In this document: one piece after another, positions 27,301 through 57,596 of the stretch
Position numbering within the stretch: position 1 is the first letter of the stretch
How the letters are laid out: the number at the start of each line of letters is the position of its first letter
Assembly (NCBI GenBank): GCA_009746045.1
Contig: RPFO01000240.1
Coordinates: forward strand, 814,042 to 878,041
From: Mesostigma viride
Taxonomy: Eukaryota > Streptophyta > Mesostigmatophyceae > Mesostigmatales > Mesostigmataceae
DNA: 64,000 bases
Direction: 5' to 3'
Position numbers and translations under genes: made by a program
The notes under the pieces: model-generated
The model's database searches: none
Told to the model about the DNA's origin: nothing
What the model saw: only the letters and a program-made list of their open reading frames with translations

Positions 27301-30300
27301 ATGGAATTGTTCCATGAGGGATGAGAAAAGTTTAGCCGCCGCGGCACTGTCCTTCGCGTTCTCAGACGCTGCCCCCCCTTCACACATTAGTTTCTTAACA
27401 TGTGTCACACCGGGCGTCCATTCCCCCTCCACTTGCTTGAAAGACTTTAAACCCTTGAAATAGTGGTTTCCGTCGACCACCGCATATCGAAGAACGAGAT
27501 ATTCGCCATCAGGATGTTCCTCGTGAAGTCTTGGGTCGAATGCCTTTAAGGAGGTCTGGCTTATTAGGCTGAAGACCTCCCTTGGTTGAAAATCAAAGGG
27601 CAGAACGTCGTCTTGTTCCCCGACTCGTGCATAGGTCCGGAACTCAACACCTCTCTTGAGGAAAGAAGCGGTGGACTTGGTTCCAAGATACTTCTCAATC
27701 TCCTTGTCGGACAAGGGGCGAAAGTAACGCGAGCCCACGAACTCCGCGTCAGTCCTAGCGCCATGGCATTTTTTCAGCCAATCCCGGTAAGGGCCAGAGG
27801 ACGTGATGTGTTTGGCGAAGAGGCTTGGCTTTGTTTCCGCAAGCGCTTGAAAGGCGAACTGCCACACAGGAATGCACACCTTAAAATGCAAACTGTTTGT
27901 CTTTGCATTCAGCAAGATGCGCCCGTTCTCCCTGAACACCTCATCGCTTAGCAACCGCTGCCTCATGTTGTCAGGCAAAATCAGCCCGTTGACGGTGTGA
28001 ATGCGCATGCTATTGCAACCGGTATCGATGAAGTCACTCGGTCGAATCCAACGGGATTCCCGCAGAGCATTCGCGTCCCGAATGGCTTTGTCCCTGATCT
28101 CCTTCTCGGAGTCCACGGTCGTTGCCATCTTCCACTCTTTGATGATCGGCACCTTGTCCACCTTTCCACTACTCGTCAGGATCCCCTCCTTGAAGAGCTT
28201 TGAAAGTGCTTTCAGAAGCTCAAGAAAAGGGGAGAAGGTAGGCCACTTTAATATCTCCGACGCCGGCGCCTTGCCCCTGGCTTCGACGTAGTTAAGCATC
28301 TCCTTGACGAGTGCAAAAACGGCATCATTGCCGGCCAACCTTCCGTCACCGTCTCCTTCCCCCTCGGCACCCTGAACGAAGGCATTGACGAACATGAGAC
28401 AAGAAAGCAATAAATAGTTTAACGTATGCATATAGTCCGCGAGCGTAGGAAAATCTCAGAGTAGGGTGCTAAGAACACAGAAGGTAAAAAGGGTCACTCC
28501 ACGGAGCTACCCCTCTGAATCTAAATCACCAAAAACGCACCGCTTCCTTTTCTCCCGCCTTCTTCCCCTTCTTTCCTTTTCCGCCTTTCTCCCCCTCGCC
28601 ACCCTGGAGGAAGACATTGACGAAGATGAGACAGGAAAACAATAAATAGTTTAACGTTTGCAAATAGTCGGCGTGCAGACAAAAAGTACCGAATAGGGTG
28701 AAAAGCACGGAGAAGGTAAAAAGGTTCACTCCACAGAGCTACCCCTCTAAATCAAAAATTCCGCAAAAAACGCACCTCTTCCTTTTCTCCCGCCTTCTTC
28801 CCCTTCTTTCCCTTCCCGCCCTTCTCCCCCCCGGCTGCGTCATCCTCCATTTCCACCCCCTTATCCTTCCCCTTCTCCTTTTTATCCGCATCCCTCTTCT
28901 TTTTGGACGCTTTTGCCTGACCCTCAAGCAGCTTCGCCCGTTCACGATCCCTTCTCTTGAGATCCCACTTCATGAACTTGATGACCTTGTCCACCTTCGC
29001 CTCCGTGTACTCCTTTGGTTTCCACTTGAACTTTTCGGTGCCCTTGGACTTGACTTGGTTGACGAAATCATAGGCCAGGTCACCGTTGAAGGTGTCAGAT
29101 TGCATTGCGAAATCGGCCGCCGCCTCAACGCGTAGTTGGGTGAGATACTTGCGAAACTCCCCGGCACCCATCGTAACATCCTTAGGGGGCTTGCCTAGGA
29201 TGAGGTCGCCAATATCACAGATAGTCTTCACCTTATTCTTTCTGTCAATAAGCTTCTTGAGATCCTGGAGTGTCGTCGTCGCCTTTTTTTTAGCCTGCTG
29301 GAAGGTATACCAACAACACACAACATACACATGAAGCGAAATGTATTAAGAAGAGTAATCTGAACTCTGGCATCCTAGCTCTGCAGCGCGACCTTCAGCG
29401 TTAAAAACTTAAAGAACATTGTACAAACCTTTGCCTTCCCCTTCCCCTTCGGAGTTGGCTCGGGCTCATTTTCTTCCTCCTCCTCCTCCTCCTCGTGCTC
29501 CTCCTCCTCTTCCTCCTCGTCCACCTCCTGCTCCTTCTCCTCCTCTTCCTTCTCGTCCACCTCCTGCATGAAAAAAAAATAATAATAATTCAGACGATGA
29601 CATAAAAAAAACGAGCATTAATTTTGTTTTAACGTTGCTCTGCGGAACGACCCCAACCCTAAGCTTTAACAGTAAAATGAAACAAATTTCCTACCTCTAC
29701 GTTCTCCGTCCCCATCCCTTCGACCTCTTCGAAAGGTTGATCGTCATCCTGCAAGACGAAACGTGCGTTCAGATAAATATACAAAGTCAGTCAAAACAGG
29801 AAGTATTTCTTGAATATCCTATCTTCACAAATCGACCCCGAACCTTTAGCGGCATTTGCTTACCTCCGGGTTCCACGCTGAAGGACTTTGTCCCTCAAAA
29901 CATGGAATGTCACCCTCCTGGCGGGAAGGAGAGAAAGAAATGCGTTGATCGTTAGTAACAATTTTCAACAAAAGAAATACACAATACAAATCTAAACGGA
30001 CTGAATAAAAATGTACACAAATGTCAATAATTACCTCAATGTCAAATCTCCACTCCCGCAACACTTGTCCGATCGGCCACATCTCAGATGGAGTTGTGTG
30101 GCTCAGTTCGTTTTCGAAAAACGTCCGAAGAAAAAACAAGTGAGATAGCATGTCCTGACTCCATGATTTCTCGTTTATGTTCGCCGTCACTAACGACAGG
30201 CAGTCGTCGATCCCCTTGTACTCAAGCCATGCGACAACCTCCTTTCGTGGGGGCTCATACTGTCCGGCCATGTAGAACTCCCCACTCTGACGAAAACGCA

Positions 30301-33300
30301 GGATCTCATCCTCGCTGTTACGCCGCGGGTATCTACCACTACCTCTACCTCTAGCTGGCCTGATGCTACCTAAACTAGTCAAGCCTCCTCTAGACAAACC
30401 TCTAGCGAAAGACGAACGAGACGATCCAGATCTCAATGCATTAACGTAAGTGTTGCTATAATACGCCATAAGCCATTTACACAACCCGTTTATTCCAGGA
30501 ATAGAGGAAGGAAACACAACTACACTGCCGTGACCCAAGCCTATATGTGTCAATTCATTTAACACACGCCGAGTGCACACACGAGGGGTAGAACGTGCAT
30601 AAATGGTCACCAACGGTCCAACACGCTCGGGCCGACATGGCCCTCGCCTACAGATGCACGCTGGTCCACTACATCTACAGATGCACGCTGGTCCACTACA
30701 TTTTACCAAAGGATCAGGACCACTAGTAAAGTACGCGGCGCGGCGCCCCAAAGGCACCCAATGTACCACGGTACTGTTACGAGGACAATAGTGTCCCGGT
30801 AGGAGCTACACGTAAACCTAGGGATAACCGAGACAAAGGACCTAATTTACGTCCGTAACTACAACGAATTGTTACGCGACGTAACACCTCCCCCCCCCAC
30901 AAAGGTAGGGAGCCCTCTCCCTACGCACAGGGAGGAAACAAAGGAGCAGGAAACCTAATGCACCCAGCACACACCAACACAATCGGCAGACCATCCAAGA
31001 TACAAAGCACCAATAGTTCACACGGTCTCCACCACCACGCCGGGAGGTGTAGGGTTAGCCAGCACCAAGCCTGGTGGTAGGTTCCCCTAACTGCCTGGAA
31101 CAAAGTCCTTGCCGGGGGGAACGGCACTGGGCAGGACACACAGAGTAAACACATCAGCACCAAGGACCAAGAACGACCAGTCAACTGGCCAGAACGTGAG
31201 GGCGACTCTATATACCGGAGGGACAACACCCTCAGGTCGGGCCTAAGGCCCTCTATCTAATGGCCATCCGTCTGGTAGGTACCACGGGAGGCCAGCAGAA
31301 CATCCAGGTACGCCTGGTAGTGAGACACATCCTCAGCATTGTCGTGCCTATCTACAGTGAGGAAAACATCGGCCCACACGCCGTCAGGGAAGAGACCCAG
31401 GAAGGCCCAGTAATACCTATGCTGCGTAAGAACGACCTGGCTCCGGGCCCAGTCCAGGAAACCACAGGCAAAGAGGCGTAGGAAAGGCTCTACCGCGATC
31501 AGGCAGAGAGCCCGAAGGAGCAGGCGATGGTACCGGATCCGAGGGCGCAGACCCGTCGGGAAAAACAGATCTACCAGGGGCTCCACGTTGGACGGCCACA
31601 ACTGGATATGCCGAATCTCGCGGGAGCGCCACCGGCGGGCACACTGTCGCGACCCGAACGTCTCGAGGTAGTCGCTAGCCCGGGGAGGAGGATGACCCCG
31701 AGAGTCCAAACCCTGGCCCGGGATAGGCGCTGGACGACGGGCATCCCACTCTAGGATGGGCTGAAGGACGGTGCTGTACGTGGCACCCGGCACCGCAGGA
31801 AACTCTACCGTAAGAGCATCTGAGGCCATAATGCCCAGAGGCGGAGGGTAAGCCCACTGGAACCCACCGTAGGTGTCCAAGTCATTGTGGCGCCTAGCCC
31901 AGCGATACAGGACGCGCCGAACCAGGATCTCACCCTGGAACACCGGATCAGCTAAAATAACCATGTCGAAAGGAGGCCGATCAGTCTCAACTGGTAGGCC
32001 ACGATCCCGCGGCGCCCGACACACCTGGGAGAACCCGTAGGACATGGGTGAAATGGCAAGCTCGGCGGAGGCGCGCGGCAGGTCACACTGGCGGCAAGCG
32101 AGCGCAGACATACCATACCCAAGGACAGGCGTGTCGCGCGACTCCGGAGTCGCATGCACCACGGAAGGGGCCCGATCCCGATCGCCCTCTGCCAACTCCC
32201 GAAGGGAATCGGCAGCGCGGGTGGCGCGCGGGTCAGAGCCACTGGACCGAACAACCGCAGCCAAAGACCGCGGGGCCGAAGGGACAGGGGCCGAAGAAGG
32301 GGTAGGAACCGGCACAGGCGCAGACGGCGCCGGAACAACAGGGGGCCGCGTCGGACCCGATGCCGCAGGGGGTCGCGACGGACCCGCCTCCGCAACTGGC
32401 GCGCCGGTCTCTGGGGGCGGAGCACCACCAGGCCACATGTTGAAAATAGGGCCCGTGGGGACAGGCAATCCGGCATACGACTGGTTACCGTCCAAGCTCC
32501 AGTCAGGCACCGGGATCCTCTGCGGAGGACCGCCCTCCCAAAGCCTGGGAAGACCGCCCGGGTCGCTGAAGAAACCCCGCGAGGGCGGCGCTGACGTGGT
32601 GGGCGGCTCGGACGCGGCGGCGGCGGGCGCGGCCACTTGGACGGCGGACTCGCGCCGAGGCGCAGGTACGTCAGTAGCAGGCGCAGCGGTAGCCGAAGGC
32701 GTAGGAGCTGCAGCACCAGAGGGAACCGCAGCCGCCGAGGGCTCGCGCGACACGGTCGGACCCGTAGACGTCGAGGCGACCGAAGGGGAAGGGGGCACAG
32801 CTGCAACAGACACCCCACCTGGCGTGGCTGGAGCGTGCGCCTGGGCCGCCATGAAGGCCCCGAAGGCCGCCGTCAGGGACTGGATCTGCGCCTGCATCGC
32901 AGAAACTGTCGCCGCAAGAGGATCAGGCTCACGACCAGAGCCCGAAGGGGTAGGCTCCACCGATGCGCACAGGACCGACCTCGGTGAAGACGGGACAGGG
33001 GAAGGCGCCGACACTGAAGAGGAGGACGCCGCAGGGGAGGCCGAATACTCAGGGGAATACTGTGCCTCTACCGGCGCGTCCGTAGGGGTAGGGTCGCCCA
33101 ATCCTACGCCCGCGTTCTGGTCTGCTATCTCCATGAACTCTACGGCCCGTAACAGGTCGCAGGGGTTCTCATCCATTTCCGCATCACCCTCGGCCGGAAG
33201 CCAGGGGAACACATCCCGTAGGCAGGAGCGGCCCACAGGGGTAGAAAGGTAGGAAAACACCCTGGGGCACTGGAGAATCGCAGCTATCTGTCCCAGGGCT

Positions 33301-36300
33301 GGACAGCTGGAGCCACAATCTAGCAAACAGTGGCCGGCATCGTCGAACCCGTGCAAAACAAGCTGATGCGGTTCAGCAGGGGAAGGACCGTACCACGTGA
33401 CCCCGAAGAGAGCCGCCCTGACTATGCCCGCATGCTGGGCCTGGAGGGCCGGATGCACGACGCCACCCGGGAAACTGGACCGTGACACCCAACGGCCCGG
33501 AAGGGCCTCGAAGTACAGCTCAGGGTCCGGTAGGGGCAGGGACGGCAGCGGGCTCTCAGCCGGAGGGGTAGGCTCTGACATGACGGCTGCGGAGGGGAGG
33601 GGACAACCAACCACCCGTCGACAGCGGACATAACATAAGAGAGGAGAAGGCCTACAACTAGAGCTTGTGCAGGGTTTTATATTCCTGCAGCAGGCGACTA
33701 CACCCATCTAGCTCACTCTCCGTATACCAAACCTTATCTACTTCACTACGAGCATACATCCACTTCACTTTATACTGACGCTGGGTACCGCGGCCCTTTT
33801 TGATATCTCTATGGGCCACGATGCTTTCTACTTCGTCTTCTACTTCCCCAGTGTCAGGGTTATGCTCTAAAGGGGCAGGCGCTAACTCCCTGCCAGCGAA
33901 CGTACTAGGGTGGTACAGTTTAAGCTGGCTCCTATGGAAGGTGTTTGAATGCGTTTGCCAAGAGGTAGGGATATCGACTTTATATAAGAAATTTCCTACC
34001 CTAGACAACACATGGAAGGGTCCTAAGAAGGCGGGCCTAAGTTTGACCTTCAGTTCTGCTTCAAACTTATGAGCAAAACGGCCAACACGGGGGCCTTCTA
34101 CTAATACTAGATCTCCTATTTCTATCTCAGGTGCTCGTCTATCTAAGGAGGCACGCAACCTAGCAAGGTACTTAGCCTGAGCTTTTTGGTACCCTGAGAT
34201 CGCGTGGTCATGAGCAGTTTTCATTCTATCTAGTAAGGACTGTACACCTTCTACAGTATCTCGGGACACATCATCCTTGTCCCGTAGCGGACTAGCTAAG
34301 AGAGAGGTAGGGGTAAGGGGCTGTCTACCAGTATCTAGGAAGAAGGGCGTATATCCATGCGCAGCCTGGGGGCAATTGTTAAGGGAGAATTCTACTAAAC
34401 ATAAATAATCCTCCCAATCACTTCCCGAGCCATTCACATAGTGCCTAAGCGCTTCTTCCACTACCCTATTAAGACGCTCTACTAAATGAGAGGAAGAGGA
34501 GTGGTAGGCAGTACCGTAGGTAACCTTGGTACCGATGGCAGCGAAAAACTGCTGCCAAAAATCTGAGGTAAATAACTTATCCTTATCACTAATAAACTGC
34601 CTACTCAAACCATGATATCTGTATACATTATTGAGGTATAGGCGTGCGCAATCACGTGCGGTGAGTTCTAAAGGACACGGCACGAGATGGCACATACGAG
34701 TAAAACGATCTATGAACACAAGGATCTGGGCATTGCCCCTCTCATTCTTTCTAAAAGGTCCTACAAAATCCATCATGATAGAATCCCAAGGCATGATGGG
34801 GTCAGGCAGGGTCCTAGGTTCTGCTATCTGTCCTACATTATTGGGTTTCATTTCCTGGCAAGATTGACAAGTTCTAACATACTCATCTACATCCTTATAA
34901 AGGGAAGGCCAGTAATAAGAGCGGGCTACTAGGTCCCGTACCCGTTTACCACCCTGATGAGCAGCTAAATCATGCAACTCAAAGAGCAAGGAGGAGCGAC
35001 AGATAGGAGGGACATACAGGCGCCATTGAGGGGGAGAATCTGCTATCTGCACATATAAAAACCCACCTACAAATTTACAAGGGTGTTTGCCTAATTGTTG
35101 GGGATGTGCAGCAATGGCAGCTAATGCTTCCGGCTCAGTGGCCGTAAATCTACTAATAAGGCGTTCAAGATCAGAGGTAGGCATCGCCACAGAAGTATCC
35201 AGAACAGGTTTAAAGAGATCTCCTACCGCCTTGCCAAAGAGAAGGGGAGGTCCTAGAGGGACTACGTTTTCATAAGATTTTCCTGACCTAGTCGCTATAT
35301 GGCTAAGCGGTATAGAAATTTTATTTTTCCCCTCCCCCCCACCGAGGCCACGGGAAGGGCCTCACACGGGAGAGAGAGTCCTACGTGAGAAAGGAGATCG
35401 GGCATGCGAACAGCTGTATGAAAGAGGTAGGCATAGGATTCATCATCAGGTAGTTCACCATAAGGGGTTACACCCATAGTAGTAGGAACTAGCGTAGTAT
35501 TGAGAACATCAAGGTCCTCGAAGAAGGAATAGTCTGCACGACGAGAGAGTGCATCTGGTACTATGTTATCTACACCCTTGACATACTGAAGTTTAAAAGG
35601 GGAAAACTGTGCTAAAAATTCCATCCAGCGCGCTTGACGAGGGGTAAGGTTGGGTTGGGAGAGAAGATGGGTAAGGGGACGATGATCCGTTTGGATAACT
35701 AACCTATAAGGATCTAGCTCACAGGGTTCATTCAGGCAGACATCAAATTGAGCACCTTTAAGGAAGTGCTGCCACGCGTGGCAACAATACACCACAGCTA
35801 AGATTTAACACGTATGGCTATTTAAAATAGCGCCTTAAGGATTGAGAACGAATGCGAAAGACCTTTGATTTCCTATGCGTCACAGCGCACGATGGTGGCT
35901 TAAGAATACTCGTCACACAATACGAATAAGCTCAAACCCGGAAAACCGGTTTCGTATATTACAATGTTACCACACAGATTAAAACACTCAATGCGGGAAG
36001 ACTTACACCCAGTAGGCGAGGGATTCACACTCGAGCCCACAGGAGATTTACACTCCAAGATTAAGCGATGGTAAATAATCTGTAGAGCAACGTGGTAAAT
36101 TACGATACAAGGTCCGGATTGCTGGCATAGCTCGTGCCTTCCTATTTTGTCCCTTCGTCCCCGTTGGTGGCTGCGCCTGGCGCTGCCAACCAGGCATGAC
36201 GTGAGGTCCGCGGGGACGGGCTTCTCGAACCGTCTAGAACACATTAAAGACCAGTACGGCTAGAGGCCTCTCCTGAAAAATATCCAAATGTCCGTAGGTA

Positions 36301-39300
36301 CCATCATAACGCATGTGCAGTGCCACTTGGCTGTCCGGTAACTCCCGTTCAGGCGCTAGGTCTGCCTACGGCGCAAAGGCCAAGTTCGTCAGCAAAACTT
36401 CTACACTTACTTCCACACGGATTGCCTCGGCTGCCAACTATACTATGGCCTCGGCACTGGCGCCGGATTACGGTCGGCGCCGATCGACCGGGATGGATAA
36501 TTTATTACCACAAATGGCATGTTGCATCCGTGCAACACTCCTCCCCCCCCCAACAAAAGAGGCGGCTACTCCTGTAGCCGGGACTTATAAATGACTGTAT
36601 ACATGGTCACTGTTCCCTTCCAGGGCACGCATCGATCGTGCCAATTGTCACCGTCCGTTGGCGATGGTTTACGGCGCCGGGCGGTACTGTAAGGGCTCGG
36701 GCGGTGACCCCCACGAGCGGAGCTCCCACGGCCATGTCCGCGCAGAGGTGCGGCCGGGCGTTGACGCCGGTGGACACGCTCAGCCGGCGCGGCCTCAGCC
36801 GGCTCGGGAAGAGGCAGGCCATTGGCCTGGACTAGGGCGGGCTGGAAGGTGAGTTGCCGCTCGCCGGCGCGTGCATCATGGCGTTTGGCCAGGTTGACAT
36901 CCCGCAGCGCCTCCAGTGGGAAAACGCTCAAGAAGGCGGCGAGGAACTTGTGTCGGGTGAGGGACACCGAACCTCCTGTCCAAACGATACCGCACCGAAT
37001 AACTCGCCCATGGACCCCTGGGGCGGGGCGGCCTGCATCAAGGCTGCCAATGCACATGCAAGGAGCATTACGCAAAAGGTAGGAGAAGGGCCGGAATTAT
37101 GCCAACCCTGCCCGGGCTTTATACTCCTGTAGCAAGCGTGCACAGCCCGTGAGTCCAGCCTCAGCTACCCATGAGTGCTCTAGCTCTGTTTGGGAGAACT
37201 TCCACTTAAGGAGGTACTCGCGGCGGCGGCCTCGATTGCGGTGGGCTACAATGTCCTCGACCTCATCCTCGGGTTCGCCCGTCTCGGGGTTGAACTCCAA
37301 GGGGGCGGGTGCCATGACACGACCTGGGAAGGTGCTCTTGCGGTAAAGCTTCAGCTGGTCAACGTGGAAAACATTGGACTTCAGCTGCCACGAGTCCGGG
37401 ATGGCGACAGACACCATCACCTCATTGAACACCTTCTCCACCAGATACGGTCCAAGGAATAAGGGGCGGAGCTTGACCTTCAGGCTGTCCTCGAACTTGT
37501 GCGAGAAGCGGCCTTGGTGGGGGCCCTCAATTAAAACCAAGTCACCTGCTTCGATTGCAGGGGTGCGCCTGTCCAGGGTACTTTGGACTCGCGCCATGTA
37601 CTTGGCACGCGCCTGACGTAGGCCACTTATGGCGCTGGAATGAGCTTGCACCATCCGTTGTACCAGCTCCCGCGCCCCTGCGACTGTGGAGCGTAGCTCC
37701 GTTGTCGTGGTGATGGCTGGGCGGTCAAGAGATCGGTGGGGGTAAGGGGATGCCTGCCTGTATCAAGAAAGAACGGGGTATACCCGTGGGCAGAATGGGG
37801 GGCATTATTGAGTGAAAACTCAATGAATCCCAGCACTTCGTCCCAATTCCTCCCGTCTCGATCCAGGTAGTGCCGCAGTGCCTCTTCCACCACCCGATTC
37901 ACTCTCTCCACCATGTGAGAAGAGCTACTGTGATAGGCCGTACCCATAGACAACTTAGTCCCGACGACCTGAAAAAATGAGGTCCAAAATTTCGACGTGA
38001 ACAGCTTGTCCTTGTCGGTGATAAATTGTCGGGGCATGCCATGGAGCCGGAACACATTGTTTAGGAACAAGTGGGCACACTCTTCCGCCGTCAGGGTGGC
38101 CTTGCAGGGGATTAAATGGCATCTCCGCGTGAGCCGGTCCACCACTACCAGGATCTGAGCATTGCCCGCCTTGGTCTCTGGCAAGGGCCCAATGAAATCC
38201 ATCATCACCGAGTCCCAAGGGAACATGGGGTCTGGAATTTCCTTTGGAACGCCCTGTTTGCCCGTATTCCGTGGCTTCATGTGCTGGCAGCTGTCACAGG
38301 TACTGACATACTCCCGCACATCCCGAGCCATCTTAGGCCAATAGTAGGACCTCCGGGCCCTCGCTAACAGCCTGTCCTGGCCTTGGTGTCCCCCCAAGAC
38401 GGAGTCATGTAACTCAAATAATACCTCAGCGCGGCATATTTGGGGGACATACAAGCGCCATGAGTCTTGACGGGCCGCCTGGCCACTGACATTCACGTAA
38501 AGGAACCCGTTTTGAAACTTGGCTGGGTAGCCGTCCATGCTCTGAGGGCGGGCAGCTATGGCTTCATTTGCCTTGTCCTCAGTGACCGTGAAGCGCGAGA
38601 TGAGGCGCTCTAGGTCCGAGCTGATGACGACCGTTGTTGCAGTATTTGCCAACGTGAATGCCTCTCCAACGGGCTGCATTGGAGGGTAGACTCCTGTCGC
38701 CGGCACCATATGGCTGTACGGGGCCGAAGTCCTTCCCCCCCTGCGGCTGCGCACGTGCCCTCACGTGCAGGGGTGCTGCCGGCGAGGCGCACGGAATGGT
38801 CAACAGTGTCAACCTCCGCGGTTGTGGCGCCACAGAAGAGGAAGGGGCTCATCGGGTCGCTCAAGCGGTCGCCAAAGGGGGCGACGGGACCATGGGAGGG
38901 GATCAACGTCGTGGCCAAAACGTCAAGATCCTCATAAAACCAATAGTCGGGGCGACGCGACAGGGCGTCAGGGACCGTGTTGTCAAGGCCCTTGACATAT
39001 TCGATCTTGAACGGACCGAACTGTGCCAAATATTCAAGCCAACGGGCTTGGCGTGGCGTAAGCGTGGGCTGCGTCAACAAGTGCGTGAGGGGCCGATGGT
39101 CGGTCTGGATGATCAAGCGGTACGGGTCCGCAGGGTCGGGTTCGGCCATGGCCACGTTGAACTGAGCACCCAGAAGATGGTGCCGCCAAGTATGGCAACA
39201 GTACACCACGGCCAACAACTCTTGCTGATGGACCGGGTAATTTCTTTCGGCCGGGATCATCGTCCGGGAGATATACTCGACCGGTTGGAGACCGAGACCA

Positions 39301-42300
39301 TGGTCTTGGAGCAGCACACCGCCAATAGCAACCTTGCTAGAATCGCTATTGACCACGAATGGCTTGGTGGGATCCGGAAGGATGAGGACAGGCGCAGTGG
39401 CGAGCCTGGCCTTCAGCAGGTCAAAGGCCTGTTGACACAGGCCTGACCATTCCCACGGTACGTCCTTCTTGAGGAGGTGAGTAAGCGGGGCCGCAATGGT
39501 CGCGAAACGCGGGATGAAGCGGCGATAATACGATACCAAGCCCAAGAAGCTGCGCAAGGCGCGAACATTCGCGGGAACAGGCCACTGTTGGACGGCGGCG
39601 ACCTTATCGGGGTCCGTGGACACGCCCTTGTCCGAGAGAATGTGGCCTAGAAAGGGGACGCTGCGGCCTGATTCTACCTTGCTGCGGCGGGCGGACAGTT
39701 TATTATCCGCCATGATCTGCAGAACCGCGGCAACATCCTCCAAGTGCTCCTCGAACGTGCGAGAGAAAATGAGGATGTCATCCAAGTAGATGGCCACGCA
39801 GGTGCGTTTGTACGGCTGCGTCCCCGGGTCCCACGGGATAGTCGGGTCGCGCAGGTCTGCCGAGACCTGGGGCAGCCGACTAGTGCCCATCACCGACCTA
39901 AAGAGGTGGTTCATGAGCATCTGAAAAGAGGCAGGGCTGTTACACAAGCCCATGGCCGCCACGCGGAATTGGTAATGGCCAAAAGGCGTGGCAAAGGCTG
40001 TTTTATGGCAATCTTCGGGGGCGATCCGAAGTTGCCAAAAACCGTCTGCACAATCGAGCACCGTAAAGTACTTTGCGCCCTCCACCTTATTAAATATATC
40101 ATCGATGCGGGGGAGGGGATACTTGGACTTCACGGTGATCGCATTGAGTTTGCGATAATCCGTAACCAGACGCCACTTCCCATTGGGTTTGGGCACCAGC
40201 AACACGCCCGCGCTGTAAGGGCTATTGCTGGGCTCGATCAAGCCGGCCTCCAACAAGCCGACCAAGATCTTCTTGAGCTCTGCCAACTCCACGGGCCCCA
40301 TGCGAAAAATGGGTGAGGTGGTAGGTGGGTGCCCCTCCTGCAAATGAATGCGGTGGAGCACCGGTCTGGCCGGGGGAAACGTAGGTGTTTTCTCCTCAAA
40401 CACGGCTGAATACTGATCGAGCACTGCGTTGAGTCGTTTCACCTCGTCTTCCGACAAGTCCATGCCAAGCGAGTTTAACGAAACTCCAGCCTGGCATGCT
40501 GGGCGCTGGGCCCGCGCGCGTGGGCAAGGGCGTCCAGACGAATGGAGTAAACGGGAGGAGGCTGTCGGGCTCTCATCATCCGCTTGAACTCCCTTTTGGA
40601 CATGAGAATGTCCGCAAGGCGACGACGGTCACTCTTGAGGGCAGGCGTGTCATCGGTGATGGTCATGCCGTTGGCCGCATACTGCCGCTCAGGTAACCAG
40701 AATGACCCATCTGGGAAGTGGGTAACCATGGTACCAAAAGAGACGGTCACCTTGGATATGTGCAGCCAGTCAATCCCTAGGATGATATCAGCCGCTTGTA
40801 AGGGAATGACCGTGGCGCGAATGGGCACGCTGGTGCCTTGTACGATAGGGGCCAAGTCCGCATAGCCCGGGGATGGCTGAGTGTAGCCATCCGAGTATCG
40901 CACGCGCCGAGCAATGGTATGGGGAGTCGGGGTTACTCCCAGGCGCTGCACTATGGCCTCACTGATGAAGGTGGTAGCCGCACCACTGTCAATGAGGACC
41001 TTGATGCCCTCCAAACAACGCCCAGAGCCCTGGGGGTCTGGTAGGCTTCCAGTGAAGAGGAGTAGTTGCCGCGGGCCTTCGCTAGGCTCCGCTTGCCATT
41101 CCTGGGTCTCTGTCACCACATTACATGGTAACAAAACTTGGGCGACTTGTGCATGGCCGGGTAAGGTGTCGCCCGGAGTGCCCTCCCGGCCTCTCAGTCC
41201 AACGCCTCTCCTGCAGGCCCCTCGTCCACCGGTGTGCCTCGCAGGTGGCCGGATGCGGCCGCGGAAGAGCCATCATCAGGCTCGGCCGCGTCTGCGGCAT
41301 CCAGTTGGTTGAGGGCATGCCCAGCTTGCTGGTAGGAGCTTGGGGGCGCCTTGGGTTGTTGGTACAGCCGGGGCTGTTGGCGCGCTTGTTGCAAGCGTCG
41401 GGCACGCTCACCCGCACTGGGAGCTGTGCGCATATTTCGCGCCGGTGGTGGCCTCGAGGCCATTTGCGGGGAGGCCGCTTGGAAATTGTTGCGTTGCACA
41501 GGCGGGGCCTGGTCCAGCGGAGGGAGATCAGGGCACTCACGTTTGATGTGCCCCACGCGATTGCAGTGGTAGCACTGAATCCGGGAAGTGTCCAAGGCAT
41601 TAATGTCCAGGACCTCGCACTGTAGCTCATCCACCCACACGGGGGCGAATCCCAGCTCATTGAGTTCCAGTGCATTCACGCGGGGTTTTGGGGTCCGCTG
41701 CACCAAGGGAGCTATCTCCGCTAGGTAGGTCTTGATGTCCTGCAGGTTCCATTGAGCCCAGGAGAGGTGGGCGAATTTCCGCTTCACCTCATCCCGGAAT
41801 TCGGGTTGCAAGCCCTCATAGAACCTTGCCAAGGCTTCTGGGCCCATCAGGTCATCAACCCGCCCAGCTAGAAGCTCGAACTTGGTCATATATTCCCGAT
41901 AGCTCAGGTTCCCCTGCTTGAACGCCCCAAAAGCCTCCCGGTCCAGCTTGTCTTGGTCGGGTGGCAGGTACTTGGCCCGTGCTCGCCGAAATAATTCAGC
42001 CAAGCTGCTGGGGAAGCCATTGGCCAGGGCGCTTTCGCAATGGAGAGCTTGTCTCACATCGGGAGCCAGTGCCTCGCTGGACACCAGCTTGACCTTGATA
42101 TCCTCGTCCAAGAGCTTGCGATTGTATGTCTCCCAGATGTCGATCTTCTGAGACACTGCAATCTCCCAAGCCTCAAACTCTTGGTACGAGCAGTCGGGTT
42201 TAAACTTGGGAATATCCGACAGCTTGGGCAACGGTGGTAGTCGCCCTGCATTGTGAGTATCATCGTCATGATGGCCCATGATACTCGCGGGTCTCCCGGG

Positions 42301-45300
42301 CCCGGCCACACCTTGCGAGGTGTGCCCACGCGGGTAACCTGCCGGGGGGCTGCACTCATCCTCACCCGGGTGCTCATACCCATGTGGGTAGTGGGCGCGG
42401 CTTGCATAATGATGGGCGGCGGTGGCCGCTGGGTGCTGCGCTCGTGGGTCACCCGGAGCCAGGCGGTCGTATGCTGAGTTGGGGAGGGGAATCGCCTCCC
42501 CTGCGACCCCGAAGGAAGACCGACCGGTCCGTGCGGTGCCCTGGCCCTGCCCAGCCATATTTGGCGAGGCATGGCCGAAGGGGCTAGCCCCAAGGGGTCC
42601 AGGCGCATGATAGGACGCCCGATGCGCAGCTCGGCGAGACCGCGATCGGCTATCATACAAGGGTGGCGCCGGGGCGCTGCTGGGCCAAGTGGCCAATGTA
42701 GGTTGCGGCAGCACCGTAGGCAGGGCCCCACTCCTACCGTAGTGCAGGGTAACATTATTCCCCTGCGCCCCCGCGCCGGCTCCTACACCAAGGGCCGGAC
42801 CCGCCGACAATCCCGCGATGGATGTTCCACTTGGTGGTCCATTAAGGGGATTCACTACAGGGCTACCAGGTGGTGCACCGGCAGCCGCCGAGGAATTCCC
42901 TCCCAAACGTGGGGTTTGTGCTGGGGATGACCCCCTAGAGCCACGCTCACTACTCGGGCGTGAGTGATTTTGGGTAGCTCTCTCTGCCGCCTCGAGTGCT
43001 GCCACGAGGGAAGGGGCAGGAGAGAAGCGATGGGCCTCTCGTCGCCCTCGCTCAACACCGTCAGCCATCGCGTGGTGGCTGGTAAAGTGTGAACAATGTG
43101 CCTCTAGTCACCTTGGCGGGATGACAAATTAAGCACAAAAATACGTCAATTAAAGGACGTGAGATATTACTGCAGCTTGCCGGAGCTGACAGTATGTATC
43201 CCAGATATAGGGTATGGGGCAATGGCCAAGACGCCAACTAATGCGTGAAATTGCAACCCACAAAGCGTTTCCGTTTAAAGCACGCAATATAAGGAGATTC
43301 GTTTCCGGACGAATCCCTTAGGTCAACCGGACAAGGCCAGGTTGGGGCATGCAGGAACCGCAATATGGGTAACGGGTATGGGCAGTTAGGATTGTGGGGA
43401 TCCGACCCCCACAATGAATTACTGCAAGCGGAATTAGTAAGGGTTCCGGCCCTTATATAATTCCGTTGCTGATCCGGATCAGATTACAGAAAAACGGGAC
43501 GGGATAGAGGCCACTAGGAAAGTTTCCTCCGAGTCCAGTTTAACACGTATGGCTATTTAAAATAGCGCCTTAAGGATTGAGAACGAATGCGAAAGACCTT
43601 TGATTTCCTATGCGTCACAGCGCACGATGGTGGCTTAAGAATACTCGTCACACAATACGAATAAGCTCAAACCCGGAAAACCGGTTTCGTATATTACAAT
43701 GTTACCACACAGATTAAAACACTCAATGCGGGAAGACTTACACCCAGTAGGCGAGGGATTCACACTCGAGCCCACAGGAGATTTACACTCCAGATTAAGC
43801 GATGGTAAATAATCTGTAGAGCAACGTGGTAAATTACGATACAAGGTCCGGATTGCTGGCATAGCTCGTGCCTTCCTATTTTGTCCCTTCGTCCCCGTTG
43901 GTGGCTGCGCCTGGCGCTGCCAACCAGGCATGACGTGAGGTCCGCGGGGACGGGCTTCTCGAACCGTCTGGAACACATTAAAGACCAGTACGGCTAGAGG
44001 CCTCTCCTGAAAAATATCCAAATGTCCGTAGGTACCATCATAACGCATGTGCAGTGCCACTTGGCTGTCCGGTAACTCCCGTTCAGGCGCTAGGTCTGCC
44101 TACGGCGCAAAGGCCAAGTTCGTCAGCAAAACTTCTACACTTACTTCCACACGGATTGCCTCGGCTGCCAACTATACTATGGCCTCGGCACTGGCGCCGG
44201 ATTACGGTCGGCGCCGATCGACCGGGATGGATAATTTATTACCACAAATGGCATGTTGCATCCGTGCAACATAAGAGTTCCTGCTGGTGGACGGGATAGT
44301 TACGCTCCGCAGGGAGCATTGTCCTAGAGATATACTCAATTGGCTGTAAGCCCTGACCCTGATCCTGGAGAAGGACACCACCTATAGCTACCTTACTAGC
44401 ATCTGTAGCCACAACAAAGGGTTTAGTAGTATCCGGTAGGATGAGTACAGGAGGGGAAAGGAGTAGGGATTTTAGGCACTGAAAAGCCGACTGACATTCA
44501 CTACTCCAAACAAAGGGGATATCCTTCTTTAATAAATGATTAATAGGGGCTGCTATAGTTGCGAAACGCGGGATAAAACGCCTATAGTAAGAAGCAATTC
44601 CTAGGAAACTACGTACACCTTTAACGTCGGTAGGAGTAGGCCATTCCTGAATTGACTTAGTTTTATCCGGGTCGGTAGCGACCCCGGCATCTGACAGAAC
44701 GTGCCCTAAAAATGGGACACTCCTACCCGAACGCACTTTAGCACGGCGCGCCCACAAAGAATTTTCAGCCGTTATTTCTAATACTTTCTTTAAATCACGT
44801 AGGTGCGTTTCAAAATCAGGAGAATAAATAAGAATATCATCTAAGTAAGCTTGAGCACAAGAACGGTCATGCTCAGATAAAGAAACAGAGGAGAAGGAAG
44901 GATCCTTTAAATCAGAGGACACCTGCGGAAGATGAGAATTTCCCATAACAGGTCTAAGCACTTCATTCATTAACATTTGAAAAGAGGCAGGCGAGTTACA
45001 GAGTCCCATAGCCGCTACTCTAAACTGGTAATGACCAAAAGGGGTAGCAAAGGCGGTTTTATGACAATCCTCTGGAGCTATCCGCAACTGCCAAAAACCA
45101 TCCGCACAATCCAGTACTGTGAAACAAGTGGAACCTTTAACCTTATTAAATATGTCATCAATACGAGGTAGAGGATATTTAGACTTCACAGTAATATCAT
45201 TCAACTTCCTATAATCAGTAACTAGGCGAAACTTGCCATTTGGCTTAGGAACTAATAGGACACCAGCTGAGTAGGGGGAGTTACTAGGCTCTATCAATCC

Positions 45301-48300
45301 TGCTTCTAATAGCGACACTAAAATCTGTTTTAGTTCCTTTAATTCAGTAGGGCCCATTCTATACATCGGAGAGTGCGTAGGAACTGCACCGTCCTTGATA
45401 ACTACACGGTGTAAAACAGAACGAGGAGGAGGATAAGAAGGAGTCTTTTCTTCAAAAACTTTTGAGGAATCTATCACAGCCATGTATCTTACTATTTCAT
45501 TTTCAGTAAATCCCACCCCTATTGTATCCACTGTGTTTATATCTATATCCACACTATTATTAGTGATAGGTATCTCCTGTACTTCTAACTGAAGGAACAT
45601 ACAAAATAATTATCCATATTCCTTTAGTTCAGAACGCAACTCATCATTGGACATTAATACTTCAGGTATAGGTCTTACAGGAGGATCAACAGGTGTAGGA
45701 GGAGTAATATCTACCAAGGATAAATTTTCCAATCTATAATGACGTTCCGGTACCCAGTAAGAGCTGTCTGGAAACCAAATGACCATGGTATCGTAATTAA
45801 TAGTAATCTTATTATCCTGGTGCCAATCTAATCCTAGTAATACATCAGCGGTAGTGATAGGGCCTATAGTGGCCGTCAGGTTGACAGTACGTCCTTGTAT
45901 GACCAGGGGAAGGGACACCGTACCCGGGGAATGACTGGTGCGACCATCAGCATAATGAACAGTAACGGGTTTGGTGTGAGGGGTAGGGACTAGTCCTAAA
46001 CGCCTAACTAGGGCTTCGCTCACAAAGGAGCTAGCCGCACCGCTATCTACCAACACAGAGACATTCAAGAGTTCATCAGCATGCAAGAAGGGGTCTACAA
46101 CAGTGTGAGGGACGGTTAAACCACCATTCAAGAACATAAGAGGACGCACACGTACTGGTAGGGAAGATTCAGCTCCTACAGAGGTTATAAAAACAGGCAG
46201 GCAAAAATTTTTATCTGGGGTACTATCTAAGGACCTGTCCAGGTTACCCCCGGCTGACAGGCCTACTGTTCCCCCTCCCCCCCAAATCCATGGGAACTAA
46301 CCCCGAAGAAGACCCTGGCGAAAAAGCCACTGCTGGAGGGTCACGAGGGAGCGAAGAGGGTGCGGGAGCCTGATTATCATAGGGGAACCCTGGGGGTCCT
46401 GTCTGCACAGCATTCAGCCTACTAGGGGTAGCTGAGGGAATGCGTCCTGAAGTAGGACGAATAGGAGCACGCTGAGGGGTACGAGGAGGGCGAGCGTCGG
46501 GATGAGGGGGAGCACCCGAAAGGAACTTGGGGCACTCACGTTTAAGATGACCTACTTCCTTACAATGATAGCATGTGATATGAGAGACATCAAGGGCTGA
46601 AAGGTCAGTAACACAGATATCTAATTCTTCTACATAGGAGTTCTCCTCCTCAGGGGTAAGGATAATATTATTAATACGGGAACGGGTAGGAAGAGAAGGG
46701 GTGGTGAAGAAATCGGCTACACGCAAGAGATGCTGGCGCACATGCTTGAGGGGCAGATCAGTAAAACGGTAGGCAGAGAACTGGCGCTTGACTTCACGTA
46801 ATAAGGGTCTACTGAGGCCTTGGAGGAAGCGAGCACGTACTTCTGCACCCGACAAATCCCTAATTCGTACCATCTGAGCATCAAACTCTTTCATATACTC
46901 CTTAAATGATTTAGTACCCTGCTGCAAGGTACCAAAGGCTAATCTATCTTGCCAATCTGAATCAGGAGGGACTAAATGGTTCTCTAAACGCTTAAACAAT
47001 TCTGCTACAGAGTTAGGGTAGGCATGAGAGGCCAAAGACTCACACTGAATGAGGTTAGCAAGCTCAGGAGTAATGCAGGTTGTAAGATAGTGAGGAACCA
47101 ATACAGCATCAGAGAGACGCCATCTATTATGATTCTGCCACGACTCTGTGTTCTGGGTAAGCAACATAATAAAGGTGAAAAACTGTTGAGGGGTAGACTT
47201 GACATCCAGCTTGGGAAGGTTAGCAAAGAGGGGAAGAGCAGGGGGCTTAGGGGGATTAGAGGAGTCAGTTTTTCCCATAGGGCCACTATCTTCCACTGCT
47301 ATATAAGCGGGATAGAAGGAAGGAAGAGGGAAAGTCTTGGGTAGGGGTCTAGAAGGGGCCACCGTTTCAGGCTGGTGCCCATAAGAAAAGGGGACAGTAT
47401 ATTGCTCACGAAGAGAGGAGTAGGCAAAATGATCATAATTTCTATCATCGAGGGGCATGGTGCTGAAATCACTATTAACTTCTAAGTCAGCCACACGGGT
47501 AGGGACCTGGGCTGCCTCATAGGCCGTCTCAGGGTAGGACCAGGAAGCAGGTGGGTAAAAGGGAACTGCACTAGGACGTCCAGAAGGGCCGACAGGGGCA
47601 GAGGCACGACCCGTGTTAAAAGCAGGCATGGAAGGCACAGGGTGGGAAGGAGGCCTAGCAACATTGTTAGTTAGTGAGGACCTGCTGGGGGGTTGAGCCA
47701 AGGTTGCAGGAGGGGCAGGGGCCTGGTTCAGGGTAAGGGAAGGGTCATCACTAAATCTGACCTGCATACGTTGACGTTGTTCATAGGTAGGAGGGGTAAG
47801 TGAGGAACGACGGCGACCACCAGCAACAGGAGAAGGAGGTGAGGTACGAAGATTACCTTGAGGAGTGAGATGGTGCACCGTTTCAAGTGAGTCTCGTCGG
47901 TTACCACGATTGTTGTTATGGTTGTTAGTATTATTATTATTATTCATAGTAGGAGTATTGGTAGGTATAGGCGACAGGTTACCACCCACTGGATCCATTT
48001 TTAATTAAGTAAATGATTAGCAATCTAACTGAAAACAACAAGGATAAAGGACAAGGCCTAAGTTAAGGCAAGGTAAGAAAAGAAAAAAGCTTTTAATGTC
48101 TTAAAAGAAGGAAACAATTTAAATCAATCCTTTTTGGCAACAGTAATGGATAGGGAACCGAACTCTAAGGTGAGAGGCGTGTCTAAGCTGGATGAGGATG
48201 CAGCCCGTTTAGGGGGAGACGAAGGAGGAGATGGAGGTGGTGTAACAAAAACAAGACTATCTACTGCAGGACGAGCATGAGGAGAAGGACGAGCATGGAG

Positions 48301-51300
48301 ACCCAAATCTGATTCACTATGCTTTAAGAGGTAGGTCTGAGCTTCTTCAAAGGACATAAACTTCTTATATTTGGAGACGTTATAAGCACGTGACTGAACG
48401 AACTTCCTAGCATCGGCCCACGATAAGAAAATGGATGCCCATTGAGGGGTAATAACAACGTAATACTTTGCTAAACTATTATTACTAGTCGAATGAGAAG
48501 GGGCAGGAAAAGAACGTCGCTGACTCATGATAACGCACCTGGTAGGTCTTGAGTAGTCAAAGAAGGAGAACGAGGGGTAGGCGACTTAGCTCTAGTGTCT
48601 GAAACCGAACCAGATTGACGGCGCATGTAGGGACGAGGTTTCCAGCGCCAGGTGGTCGTAAGTATCCGGTTTCAAGAAGTCTGCATCTGGCGATGGGTCG
48701 TCTAAATACAACGCAGGCAAGAATGCAGAAAAGTGTAATCTACGAGACGCTAGCCGTCTCCCTAACGCAGAACCAAAACCACCTATCTACAACAGTAGGC
48801 CACATGTCTCAAGAAAACAAAACGAGGAAAAGGAAAAGGAACTAGCTACGTGAGGAGTTCATCCGCTTTGAGCAGGTCTAACTTCTAGGCAGGGCGTGTC
48901 CCGAATCGGGCAGCACTACCCCCCCAGCTCGCAGGCGACCCGCCCATTACCTGTCAAGTAGGTGTCGTCTTCATTTTCCCGGACGCGGAAGGGTTGATTC
49001 AATGACGTATGTTGCAGGGGATCGTCGTCTGGTTCTCTACCTAAAATTCCTCCGAGTCCATTGTTACGCCGCGGGTATCTACCACTACCTCTACCTCTAG
49101 CTGGCCTGATGCTACCTAAACTAGTCAAGCCTCCTCTAGACAAACCTCTAGCGAAAGACGAACGAGACGATCCAGATCTCAATGCATTAACGTAAGTGTT
49201 GCTATAATACGCCATAAGCCATTTACACAACCCGTTTATTCCAGGAATAGAGGAAGGAAACACAATTACACTGCCGTGACCCAAGCCTATATGTGTCAAT
49301 TCATTTAACACACGCCGAGTGCACACACGAGGGGTAGAACGTGCATAAATGGTCACCAACGGTCCAACACGCTCGGGCCGACATGGCCCTCGCCTACAGA
49401 TGCACGCTGGTCCACTACATCTACAGATGCACGCTGGTCCACTACATTTTACCAAAGGATCAGGACCACTAGTAAAGTACGCGGCGCGGCGCCCCAAAGG
49501 CACCCAATGTACCACGGTACTGTTACGAGGACAATAGTGTCCCGGTAGGAGCTACACGTAAACCTAGGGATAACCGAGACAAAGGACCTAATTTACGTCC
49601 GTAACTACAACGAATTGTTACGCGACGTAACACTCGCACAACTGAAGAAATAATTCAACAGCTCGACTCGGAAGAATAGGGTCTGGGTTCACCCTAAACT
49701 GCGCCATCCACACTGAATACGACGAAAGGAAGTGCGATCTAACCCCATCCAAATCTTCAATGACATTTGTGCCAGCCATGAACAACTCGGGAGATACCGA
49801 GTGGTCCATGGCTACCAGAAAGTCGCCGAAGACATCCCAGTCGAACTGCGCATCCTTGAACCCTTTCTTCAAGAGCAGATTGACATCGATTTCCGTCAGC
49901 GGGGAGGTGTCCCAATCCTCACCTGTCTTCCCCTGCTCTAGGACCTGGTACATTTCCCACCTGCAGACAGATATGATGATGTCAAAATACTCGTGTGACA
50001 ATGGGTGCTGTCTCGTGTCCTTGCAGTACTGTTTGGTCGCACAAGACAGCTTGATCCAGACGAGCAGGCTTCGAGGAACATAAGCTGTAACATCCGCTGC
50101 GTCGGGTATCGTTGACCCGCACTCGGTAACAAGCAACTCAAAGGTGTCGAAAAGAGATGCAATGTCTTTCCCCTTCAACCTTTTGCCTCGAAGGCTCCGC
50201 CCCATCGCTATGAACAAAAGATCACGAAGTGTTGGATCACTCCAAGGGTTCATCTTCTCATCAGACCCGGATTCCATCCTCTCATGCCAGACACCGTCAT
50301 CGATCGCAACTTCGATCTCCTTCGACACAAAGGTGCTCAAGAACGACTTGCGTCATCGTTCAGATGTTTTTCGTAAGTCGTCAACCATGACTTCCAAGTT
50401 TCCAAGCCCCTCAACTGGATCGGCTGCACACAGGTCCACAAAACGAAAAAAAAGCATAATCGGAAAAAAAGTTTAGGGTCACTCTGCGAAGTGACCCTTC
50501 ATAAAAAAATATCAAACAAAACGAAGGACTAACTGACATGCACTAAGCGGCGAAAAAATTATTAGCTCACCCGCAATTTCTCCTCCCCACTCCCAACCTC
50601 GGCGTTCCCCTGAGACTCTGTCTCATCTCCCCCTTTCTTCCTCTGGATGCAGCAAGACAGAGGAAAGCATACTCGTTGAAAAAGTTTAGGGTCACTCTGC
50701 GAAATGACCCTCCATAAATTAATCACACATGCGAAGGAAACGGCAACTCAGAAATGAAGGACAAATGAACAAAGAACAAAGGCGAAAAACACAGGATTAC
50801 TTATCGCTCACCTCCGTTGTTGTCCCGCTCTTCTTGGGATCCTCTGACTTCTTTTCGTCTGCCCCCCGCTTCCTCTGAAATTAAAACAACAGGGAAAAGC
50901 ATACTTGTTGGTTCAGGTTAGGGTCACTCTGCGAAATGACCCATTCATGGTCAAACGAGCTTAGCAGAGATAAGGAATAACGAAACCCGTTAAAAATAAC
51001 ACGCACACTAATGGGGGTAAAAACTGTTTCTCACCTGAGACGGCTCCGTACCCTCCTTCTCCGAGACCCCCGCGGTCTTCCCATCCACCTCCGTCGACTT
51101 TTCTGCAGCCTGCGCCTTCCTGCGCTCCTCCTCAAGTTTGGCTTGGTATTTCAGGCGTGCCGCCACACCCGCCTCCATCATCCTCTTCCCCTCCTCCTGC
51201 ACCTTCCTCTTCGCCTTTGCCTCCTCGTCCTTCTTTTTCCTTTCCTCATTCGCCTTTCTCTCCTTTTCGTCCCGCTCCCACGACGCCCTCCTCTTCCTGC

Positions 51301-53248: not shown

Positions 53249-53282
53249 CCCAAAAACAATACTGACCACTCCCCAAAAAAAT

Positions 53283-56483: not shown

Positions 56484-57596
56484 TCACATTCCTCCAATGC
56501 TAGGGCCCACCCCTCCCGACCGCGCCTTCCGTTGACGATACTCGTGGAGTACCTGGCGACCCTGCTCACCAATTTCCTCGAGGATCTTCCCGGGGTTAGC
56601 GAGGTGATCCGCATTGTATGCGAGCTGGTATTCGTTTACGTTGGTGCGCGTTTGAGCGAGGTCTACCCACGTCCCGGTGGGCCAGTACGACATGAATGCG
56701 GCCAGGTATTGCGGGTGCGTGAACATGATTGTGACCGCGTTCCAATCAATAACCCCACATCCATGCTCCGCAAAGAAACCCCCCGCCATGGTCAACACTA
56801 CGACGCGCACCTGGAGAGCGTTGAAGCGAAAGCCCGGAGCCCTCACAAAGTTGGGCACAACCCAGTCGAGGAATGCCTCTCCCTCGCACGGAGCATACTT
56901 GGGACAGTCAACCTTTCGAGGTTTACCATCTACCATGTATTTTGGCAGCTCCCGCTTGGGGCCGTAACGCGTACCAGAACCCTCTGACAACGATTCTAGG
57001 CAGTCCTGGGGTCGCGGGGCCACCCTCCCTGGGTGCAAGTCGAAGCAGACTAGCTCGCGCATGGAGCCTCGCTCCACATACGCATGAGTTCCTGCCTCAA
57101 AGTGCAGCGGTTGCGGTCGATGATAGTCCGCGCTGTCGACGGCCACGAACGGCGGTGGTGGGAGTTCAATGTAGACGGGAACACCCCGAAACTCATGTAA
57201 GGGGCGTACTCGTTGTGGGCCGGGAAACGCGCTGACGTAAGCGCCCACCGTCCATGGCGCCGGTCGAGCCACCGCCTGTACGAGCAAAGACCCCTGCGCG
57301 GGAGATATAAAGCCCACCGCTGGTATCGGGCCACGCCTCTCTGGTATATGGGCGCGGGACGTCTCCACGCGCGGCAACCGCTCGGAGTAAGTTCGCGATT
57401 CTCGGCGCGGACTCTGGGAATCCGCGGAGACGCTGCCCGCCGACACCTCGTTCGTACATGCGCGACGTCTAACTCCTCGCTGGGCATCCGGTTCCACTTG
57501 GGGGCGTTTCTGGTTGCTTGCGCTCGATATCCTCGGAATCGAGCTTAGTCGGGTCGGTCGAGCCGCCCGTTCGCCGGGTCGGTCCCGTCCCGACAA
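56484..57596 (-). CDS. Third chromovirus ORF3
   Basis: 370 residues. The C-terminal block CGVIDWNAVTIMFTHPQYLA, AFMSYWPTGTWVDL aligns with outer ORF3 CGFLDWARSQVVLTQHRYYW, AFLGLFPDGVWADV. Upstream, DCLESLSEG and GEAFLDWVVP parallel DYLETFGS and VEPLVDLFFP. The N-terminus is Arg-rich. A further ORF in another frame (57469-57834, with two TRRTGGS copies) lies between integrase and this ORF and may be its shifted N-terminal part. No membrane segment. Confidence 0.75.
   Translation of the reverse strand: MSGRDRPGERAARPTRLSSIPRISSASNQKRPQVEPDAQRGVRRRACTNEVSAGSVSADSQSPRRESRTYSERLPRVETSRAHIPERRGPIPAVGFISPAQGSLLVQAVARPAPWTVGAYVSAFPGPQRVRPLHEFRGVPVYIELPPPPFVAVDSADYHRPQPLHFEAGTHAYVERGSMRELVCFDLHPGRVAPRPQDCLESLSEGSGTRYGPKRELPKYMVDGKPRKVDCPKYAPCEGEAFLDWVVPNFVRAPGFRFNALQVRVVVLTMAGGFFAEHGCGVIDWNAVTIMFTHPQYLAAFMSYWPTGTWVDLAQTRTNVNEYQLAYNADHLANPGKILEEIGEQGRQVLHEYRQRKARSGGVGPSIGGM

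Follow-up and report, generated by a model that had tools for sequence, protein, structure and literature searches.

The 64,000-nucleotide stretch of Mesostigma viride DNA analyzed here (contig RPFO01000240.1; hereafter the window) contains three Ty3/gypsy long terminal repeat (LTR) retrotransposons, the outer, nested, and third elements, each carrying all or part of an additional open reading frame (ORF), which we term ORF3, between integrase and the 3′ LTR. All three are chromoviruses, with a chromodomain (PF00385) at the integrase C terminus of the outer (E = 3e-8), nested (E = 3e-9), and third (E = 7e-8) elements. They follow the gypsy order of LTRs, gag with CCHC motif, protease, reverse transcriptase/RNase H, and integrase, with the protease scan covering the outer element only and the 5′ LTR of the third element, which extends past the window edge, being visible only in part (locus L078). 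Each encodes a Gag with a CCHC knuckle, a reverse transcriptase, and an integrase that ends in SH3_Tf2-1 and a chromodomain, and every Gag gave a Retrotrans_gag match, that of the third element falling below the cut-off. The rve core was matched in the outer and nested elements. It was not matched in the third, whose integrase in the window copy is spread over two overlapping frames (57867-58835 and 58679-61177, minus strand), neither with an rve match; the integrase of the nested window copy is also divided between two overlapping frames (37097-38754, minus strand). A preliminary description of this DNA had spoken of otherwise diverged elements, which overstates their distance: pairwise, they are 68-74% identical in reverse transcriptase, 56-63% in integrase, and 30-34% in gag, and therefore constitute one clade.

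ORF3 lies on the same strand as gag-pol and occurs in many copies. The open frame of the outer element spans 31257-33707 (minus strand, 816 amino acids). Its start is most likely Met43 at 33581, which coincides with the end of the ORF in the preliminary description, because residues 1-42 are not conserved with a second outer-type subfamily, B (7 of 25 aligned residues), whereas residues 43-200 are (97 of 156); the full 816-residue frame is probably unused. As residues 1-42 are not conserved, a frameshift fusion of integrase with ORF3 was ruled out for the outer type. In 816-residue numbering, outer ORF3 consists of an N module (about 43-200), a Pro/Ala-rich linker (about 201-540) with, by eye, a short heptad-like stretch, and a C-terminal domain (about 541-816). 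In the window copy, the frame of the third element opens with TTG. Of the 30 copies fetched, 19 have an ATG farther upstream in the same frame (MTVLVG...), which falls in a different frame in the window copy. The observation that all three elements carry the ORF is confirmed, with the qualification that the nested window copy holds a deletion remnant.

Many further copies lie elsewhere in the genome. Subfamily B, recognized via P0008 (65% identical), has at least 16 copies at 98-100% identity, 12 of the 16 with an open frame of at least 740 amino acids. Copies of subfamily A, that of the outer window element, far outnumber them: all 40 DNA matches scored, out of 1295 candidates, were 96-100% identical. 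Among the 130 A matches listed, 28 have frames of at least 770 amino acids, 47 of 600-769, and 55 shorter (the A/B tally covers 146 of 150 listed matches, four partial or broken ones having been dropped). For third-type ORF3, scoring 111 of 1899 candidates yielded at least 126 matched pieces. In several third-type copies the frame is interrupted near residues 270-282 and the rest of the C terminus continues in another frame, which suggests a break that they have in common and not scattered decay.

Sequence comparison indicates that the C-terminal domain of ORF3 is shared by all three elements. Pairwise blastp of ORF3 gave E = 7e-11 (outer/third), 1e-6 (outer/nested), and 4e-5 (third/nested), and a profile built from outer-type copies alone recovered the third (E = 9e-10) and nested (E = 7e-5) ORF3s, the best of 2340 decoys reaching 0.064. 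Smith-Waterman scores against 500 shuffles gave z = 14.7 for outer/third and 6.7 for outer/nested full length. The weakest pair is third versus full-length nested (z = 4.8, the best shuffle, 92, exceeding the real score of 79); blastp, shuffles, and the independent profile are otherwise concordant. In a ten-sequence alignment, the C, G, W, T, A, F, P, and D of the block are invariant, together with some further residues. The kinship of the C-terminal blocks, first proposed by eye, is borne out by these data, and the spacing described as uniform is so from W to AF, P, and D, whereas the nested copy has one residue fewer between CG and W. The N-terminal parts had been called unrelated or missing; the N module indeed gave no significant blastp hit to third or full-length nested ORF3, yet it forms a second conserved module of the outer types. 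ORF3 diverges between elements at about the pace of gag (30-34%). Between subfamilies A and B, 93 of 136 residues are identical in 681-816, where synonymous sites are near saturation (pS 0.65).

Searches for relatives of ORF3 led back to M. viride. The three window ORF3s matched no Pfam family at E ≤ 10, nor did residues 43-200 of the N module at E ≤ 1, and PDB sequences gave no match to the outer C-terminal domain or to profile A4. PHROGs returned a single match, at E = 0.56, for the outer, third, and nested full-length proteins at E ≤ 1. Against the protein database, the outer C-terminal domain gave two matches, the third ORF3 alone gave none at 1e-3 among 2935 candidates, and the profile gave nine at E ≤ 1, all from M. 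viride (8000 candidates sharing most words scored). The ORF3-like proteins returned from a 5.8-billion-protein database were M. viride gene models only, and none of 16 pattern matches in viral contigs was a relative by tblastn. An AF2 model of residues 672-816 (pLDDT 72, pTM 0.64) shows a β-α-β-β-α-β order, as in ferredoxin-like or RRM-like folds, with weak fold matches. No ORF3 relative from outside M. viride came out of the Pfam, PDB-sequence, and protein searches made.

Comparison of copies, proposed in the preliminary description, gave dN/dS values (Nei-Gojobori with Jukes-Cantor, pooled pairs) well below 1 in the C-terminal domain of both outer (0.08) and third (0.12) ORF3. Eight outer copies picked by DNA similarity (8 of the 40 scored, four of them truncated) gave 0.082 for residues 541-816, with 308 synonymous changes pooled over pairs; the integrase frames at these loci gave 0.258. 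The N-terminal value of this set (0.50, residues 45-200) looks inflated by frame slips, and we preferred the four intact copies, which gave 0.187 for residues 43-200, 0.328 for 201-540, 0.114 for 541-680, and 0.147 for 681-816. For the third type, 26 unique copies (29 of 30 used), picked by protein score and hence biased, gave 0.534 for residues 28-130, 0.290 for 131-250, and 0.124 for 251-370; the corresponding integrase value of 0.546 is unreliable, coming from 23 partial frames of 30, those with few shared words being omitted. Full-length relatives of the nested element (5-6 copies, some frame-shifted) gave 0.828 for residues 10-200, 0.471 for 201-320, and 0.196 for 321-372. Across these sets, the C-terminal domain stays conserved, the linkers change more freely, and constraint is not apparent in the deleted remnant. 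The C-terminal domain of the outer and third copies is, on these ratios, evidently under purifying selection; the selected function claimed earlier for all three is supported for these two and not for the nested copy. We find it scarcely credible that ORF3 is functionless and owes its low dN/dS to recent common ancestry or to the choice of well-matching copies. The selection of third copies by protein score is such a bias, and the counts in the nested remnant (Sd = 3, Nd = 12) look neutral, but the outer copies picked by DNA similarity still gave 0.08 in the C-terminal domain, and the A and B proteins are conserved despite synonymous sites near saturation in ORF3 (pS 0.65-0.72).

In the nested window copy, two sites separated by about 877 bp in a relative, L069, are directly joined. 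Of the full-length relatives fetched, L069 and L070 have a whole ORF3 frame (428 and 435 amino acids, respectively); it is long in L071 and L072 and broken in the remaining four. The deleted form was fetched in 28 copies, from a list that used this form as query and is skewed toward it; 27 of them match the first at 98.98-99.78% identity over about 2.7 kb, and the integrase frame is open for 492 codons, roughly the whole flank covered, in 19 of the 28. Their residual ORF3 frame, with four unique versions among the 28 copies, gave a ratio of 1.5. So many near-identical ORF3-deleted copies, most with open integrase, argue that ORF3 is not needed in cis for multiplication. It thus appears dispensable in cis, and intact relatives may supply it in trans.

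The multiplication of the ORF3-deleted lineage also speaks against ORF3 being a second structural protein, Gag- or particle-associated, which we judge distinctly unlikely. A long Pro/Ala-rich, low-complexity linker joined to a compact domain would suit such a protein, as would the gag-like divergence; yet every element already encodes a Gag that contains a CCHC knuckle and matches Retrotrans_gag (below the cut-off in the third), and hhalign against the three gags gave a probability of 0.1, with shallow profiles of 10 and 3 sequences. A Gag duplicate, considered separately, was rejected on the same lack of a profile match.

Sequences resembling a splice-site pair flank gag-pol in the outer types. 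Upstream of the ORF3 ATG, a polypyrimidine tract is followed by CAG/CCGTC-ATG in A (8 of 8 copies) and by CAG/CCTTC-ATG in B (slash, putative junction), which places the candidate acceptor 5 nt before the ATG. Over the last 28 noncoding nucleotides before ORF3, A and B reach a local alignment score of 21, the best of 2000 shuffles being 15, while synonymous sites of ORF3 are close to saturation between them. Ten such tracts occur in 4.9 kb of the outer minus strand, so a single tract says little; the argument for this acceptor is made from its place and conservation, not from the mere presence of a tract. The candidate donor lies in the longest A/B leader match (170 columns, 90%) and reads CAG/GTAATG in A and CAG/GTAAGG in B. 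The frame of a putative exon 1, starting MAYYSN in A and MAYSNR in B, reaches this donor, and its phase, ACA G/ followed by CC, runs into ORF3 in both. Six leader regions were fetched, of which L080 and L082 gave no match and L083 matched in its LTR part only. A third leader lineage, A′ (L081 and L084), has a leader only about 82% identical to that of the window, with the donor kept; L084 retains the phase (ATA G/), and the exon frame of L081 is broken. Altogether, the donor is kept in window A, L085, A′ (L081, L084), and B, and the phase in A, A′ (L084), and B. No equivalent plan of donor, exon 1, and acceptor was found in the nested and third leaders.

The LTR-encoded part of the predicted exon 1 shows constraint at the protein level. 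Seven unique copies gave pS 0.217, pN 0.043, and dN/dS 0.174, and when six frames were tested in eight copies, one with a frame slip, the ratio fell below 0.5 in the coding frame only. First, second, and third codon positions have 12, 9, and 23 variable columns of 51 each, again with one copy carrying a frame slip. The whole exon is less constrained between lineages (dN/dS 0.36-0.58). Splicing of exon 1 to gag or to the leader frame ORF0 (see below) was considered and rejected: the seven leader acceptors of A and the nine of B that exceed the pyrimidine threshold give in-phase frames of at most 64 codons. In L001-L008, the coding DNA of the LTR part is 0.76-0.95 identical among 12 of 28 pairs, with the protein nearly constant, and the 150 nt just upstream are 0.94-0.99 identical; the lower identity of the coding stretch suggests swapped LTR/leader blocks or unusual synonymous divergence.

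From this arrangement we infer that a spliced subgenomic mRNA is the most likely template for translation of ORF3 in the outer types A, A′, and B. The 5′ leader donor would be joined to the acceptor beside the ORF3 ATG, removing gag-pol and fusing an arginine-rich, 88-residue exon encoded by LTR and leader in frame with ORF3. It is rather unlikely, in our view, that a selected ORF3 is instead translated from full-length RNA by reinitiation or internal initiation, perhaps aided by ORF0, with the LTR ORF serving as a separate leader peptide. ORF0 carries PF01693 in outer A (E = 1.7e-6), in the subfamily B leader (L079, 2.7e-7), and in the third leader (L078, 4.3e-8; at about 64.2-64.6 kb, beyond the window), with an A versus B dN/dS of 0.30; this Cauli_VI domain was not seen in the nested leader frames. 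It belongs to the same Pfam family as caulimovirus viroplasmin, here in a chromovirus leader, and is linked by that family name to the TAV of caulimoviruses, which drives polycistronic reinitiation (PMC5902531). Translation from full-length RNA would also agree with the stop of the unspliced LTR ORF being kept in A, A′, and B and with the missing splice pair in the third and nested elements. It would leave aside an acceptor tract conserved between A and B in noncoding DNA beside the ATG and a donor and phase kept in three lineages, which argue for splicing.

That ORF3 is a degenerate envelope or movement-type protein we hold to be very improbable. Its position recalls retroviral env and plant env-like ORFs (PMC7264820), as does the predicted spliced plan, and its loss in amplified derivatives parallels the envelope-less Diaspora (PMC1142308). 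Hydropathy peaks of 1.92 in outer A and of 1.77, elsewhere in the protein, in outer B exceed 1.6; the outer A peak, however, corresponds to 1.56 in the third ORF3 and 1.32 in B, and full-length nested ORF3 has a maximum of 1.25 anywhere. The N termini inspected show no hydrophobic signal, and the predicted N terminus is Arg-rich. The earlier view that ORF3 is not envelope-like is likely right, with no signal peptide or shared membrane helix by hydropathy, although the two peaks blur its statement that there is no membrane helix.

The coordinates of these features are collected in Table 1. Elsewhere in the window, a long minisatellite (53190-54900) that reads as HHHHPCMPA/PPSMHAS repeats lies near the 3′ LTR of the third element, and two long ORFs of unassigned nature occupy 24425-26749, with a very long acidic (Glu) run, and 27121-28431, both on the minus strand. 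A 500-amino acid ORF at 19932-21434 (plus strand) resembles, by eye, a reverse transcriptase from another type of retroelement.

Table 1. Positions in the window of the elements, of ORF3, and of the predicted features of its expression
Feature	Position	Strand	Remarks
Outer ORF3 from Met43	31257..33581	minus	774 aa; starts 76 nt past integrase stop codon
Outer 3′ LTR	30316..30887	minus	99.8% identical to 5′ LTR
Outer 5′ LTR	49062..49633	minus	encodes beginning of predicted exon 1
Outer integrase with SH3_Tf2-1 and chromodomain	33658..35190	minus	
Predicted 3′ splice site, polypyrimidine tract and CAG	33587..33606	minus	exon 2 from 33586, ATG at 33581
Predicted 5′ splice site GTAATG (CAG/GTAATG)	48945..48950	minus	only AGGTAA in outer 5′ LTR and leader before gag
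Leader block containing predicted donor	48825..48992	minus	90% identical to subfamily B over 170 columns
Predicted exon 1, MAYYSN...YLT	48951..49215	minus	88 aa, pI 10.4, Arg-rich; about 51 codons in 5′ LTR, rest in leader
Leader ORF0, Cauli_VI / RNase H1 N-terminal domain	48124..48528	minus	134 aa, upstream of gag; neighbor of ORF3, not part of it
Nested chromovirus, inside outer pol	35804..44271	minus	includes LTRs 35804-36537 and 43539-44271 (99.7%)
Nested ORF3 remnant	36566..37075	minus	deletion junction near 36994-37004; about 877 bp missing vs L069
Third element ORF3 frame	56484..57596	minus	370 aa from TTG; C-terminal domain about 131-370

On balance, we lean toward ORF3 being a genuine third gene of one M. 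viride chromovirus clade, spliced in the outer types and encoding a trans-acting, non-envelope accessory protein. Located in sense orientation between pol and the 3′ LTR, this accessory ORF is maintained by purifying selection, and some derivatives have lost it. The sequences themselves show the gene, its homology, the selection on it, the conserved splice-site-like sequences with their phase, and a lineage without it, whereas the occurrence of splicing, action in trans, and the molecular role are inferred. Its protein would most likely be a nucleic-acid-binding regulatory or host-defense-evasion factor acting in trans, like P4 of rice tungro bacilliform virus (RTBV). P4 is an accessory protein produced by splicing a leader upstream ORF to a distal ORF (PMC5902531), and the outer types A, A′, and B resemble it in the predicted in-frame fusion of a leader ORF to a distal one. 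The likeness is one of plan, not of sequence comparison, and P4 comes from a pararetrovirus whereas ORF3 comes from an LTR element.

Other LTR elements are known to carry sense ORFs at this place, between pol and the 3′ LTR (PMC7264820). ORF3 of M. viride is like those ORFs in position, orientation, and occurrence in many copies, and splicing has been reported for one of them, barley Bagy-2; it differs in having no family-shared transmembrane signature, a predicted LTR-encoded in-frame first exon, and no sequence relative outside M. viride in the protein searches made. According to PMC5408684, retrovirus-like LTR retrotransposons of bdelloid rotifers likewise have a non-envelope ORF3 after pol, but the bdelloid ORF3s named there are GDSL esterases, DEDDy exonucleases, or paramyxovirus-derived env, whereas that of M. 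viride matches no Pfam family. The TRP28 ORFs of Retand elements (PMC11963269), which also lie between pol and the 3′ LTR, likewise encode a protein that is conserved, of unknown nature, and possibly nucleic-acid binding; they are antisense, and M. viride ORF3 is sense. What sets ORF3 apart from the known kind is the combination of a family without a relative found outside M. viride, selection, a predicted LTR exon, and a coexisting, multiplied lineage that has lost it.

Gag and Pol are considered enough for LTR retrotransposition (PMC7264820), and the core of outer ORF3 is at least as constrained as integrase; ORF3 therefore points to an undescribed step in the contest between element and host. 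With intact and ORF3-deleted copies side by side in one genome, it can be asked whether such proteins act in trans, and the predicted LTR-encoded exon makes a precise prediction at the RNA level. With their Cauli_VI domain, the leader ORFs raise the question of a connection between chromoviruses and plant pararetroviruses, which can be tested. As a speculation, which we think unlikely though worth stating, this chromovirus clade may use a pararetrovirus expression plan, in which a TAV-type RNase H1-N leader ORF is combined with a spliced protein of a new family that counters silencing and is exploited in trans by deleted derivatives, whether by convergence or as a relic of the Caulimoviridae line. 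If true, this would place a pararetrovirus-type plan in one of the earliest-branching streptophyte algae.

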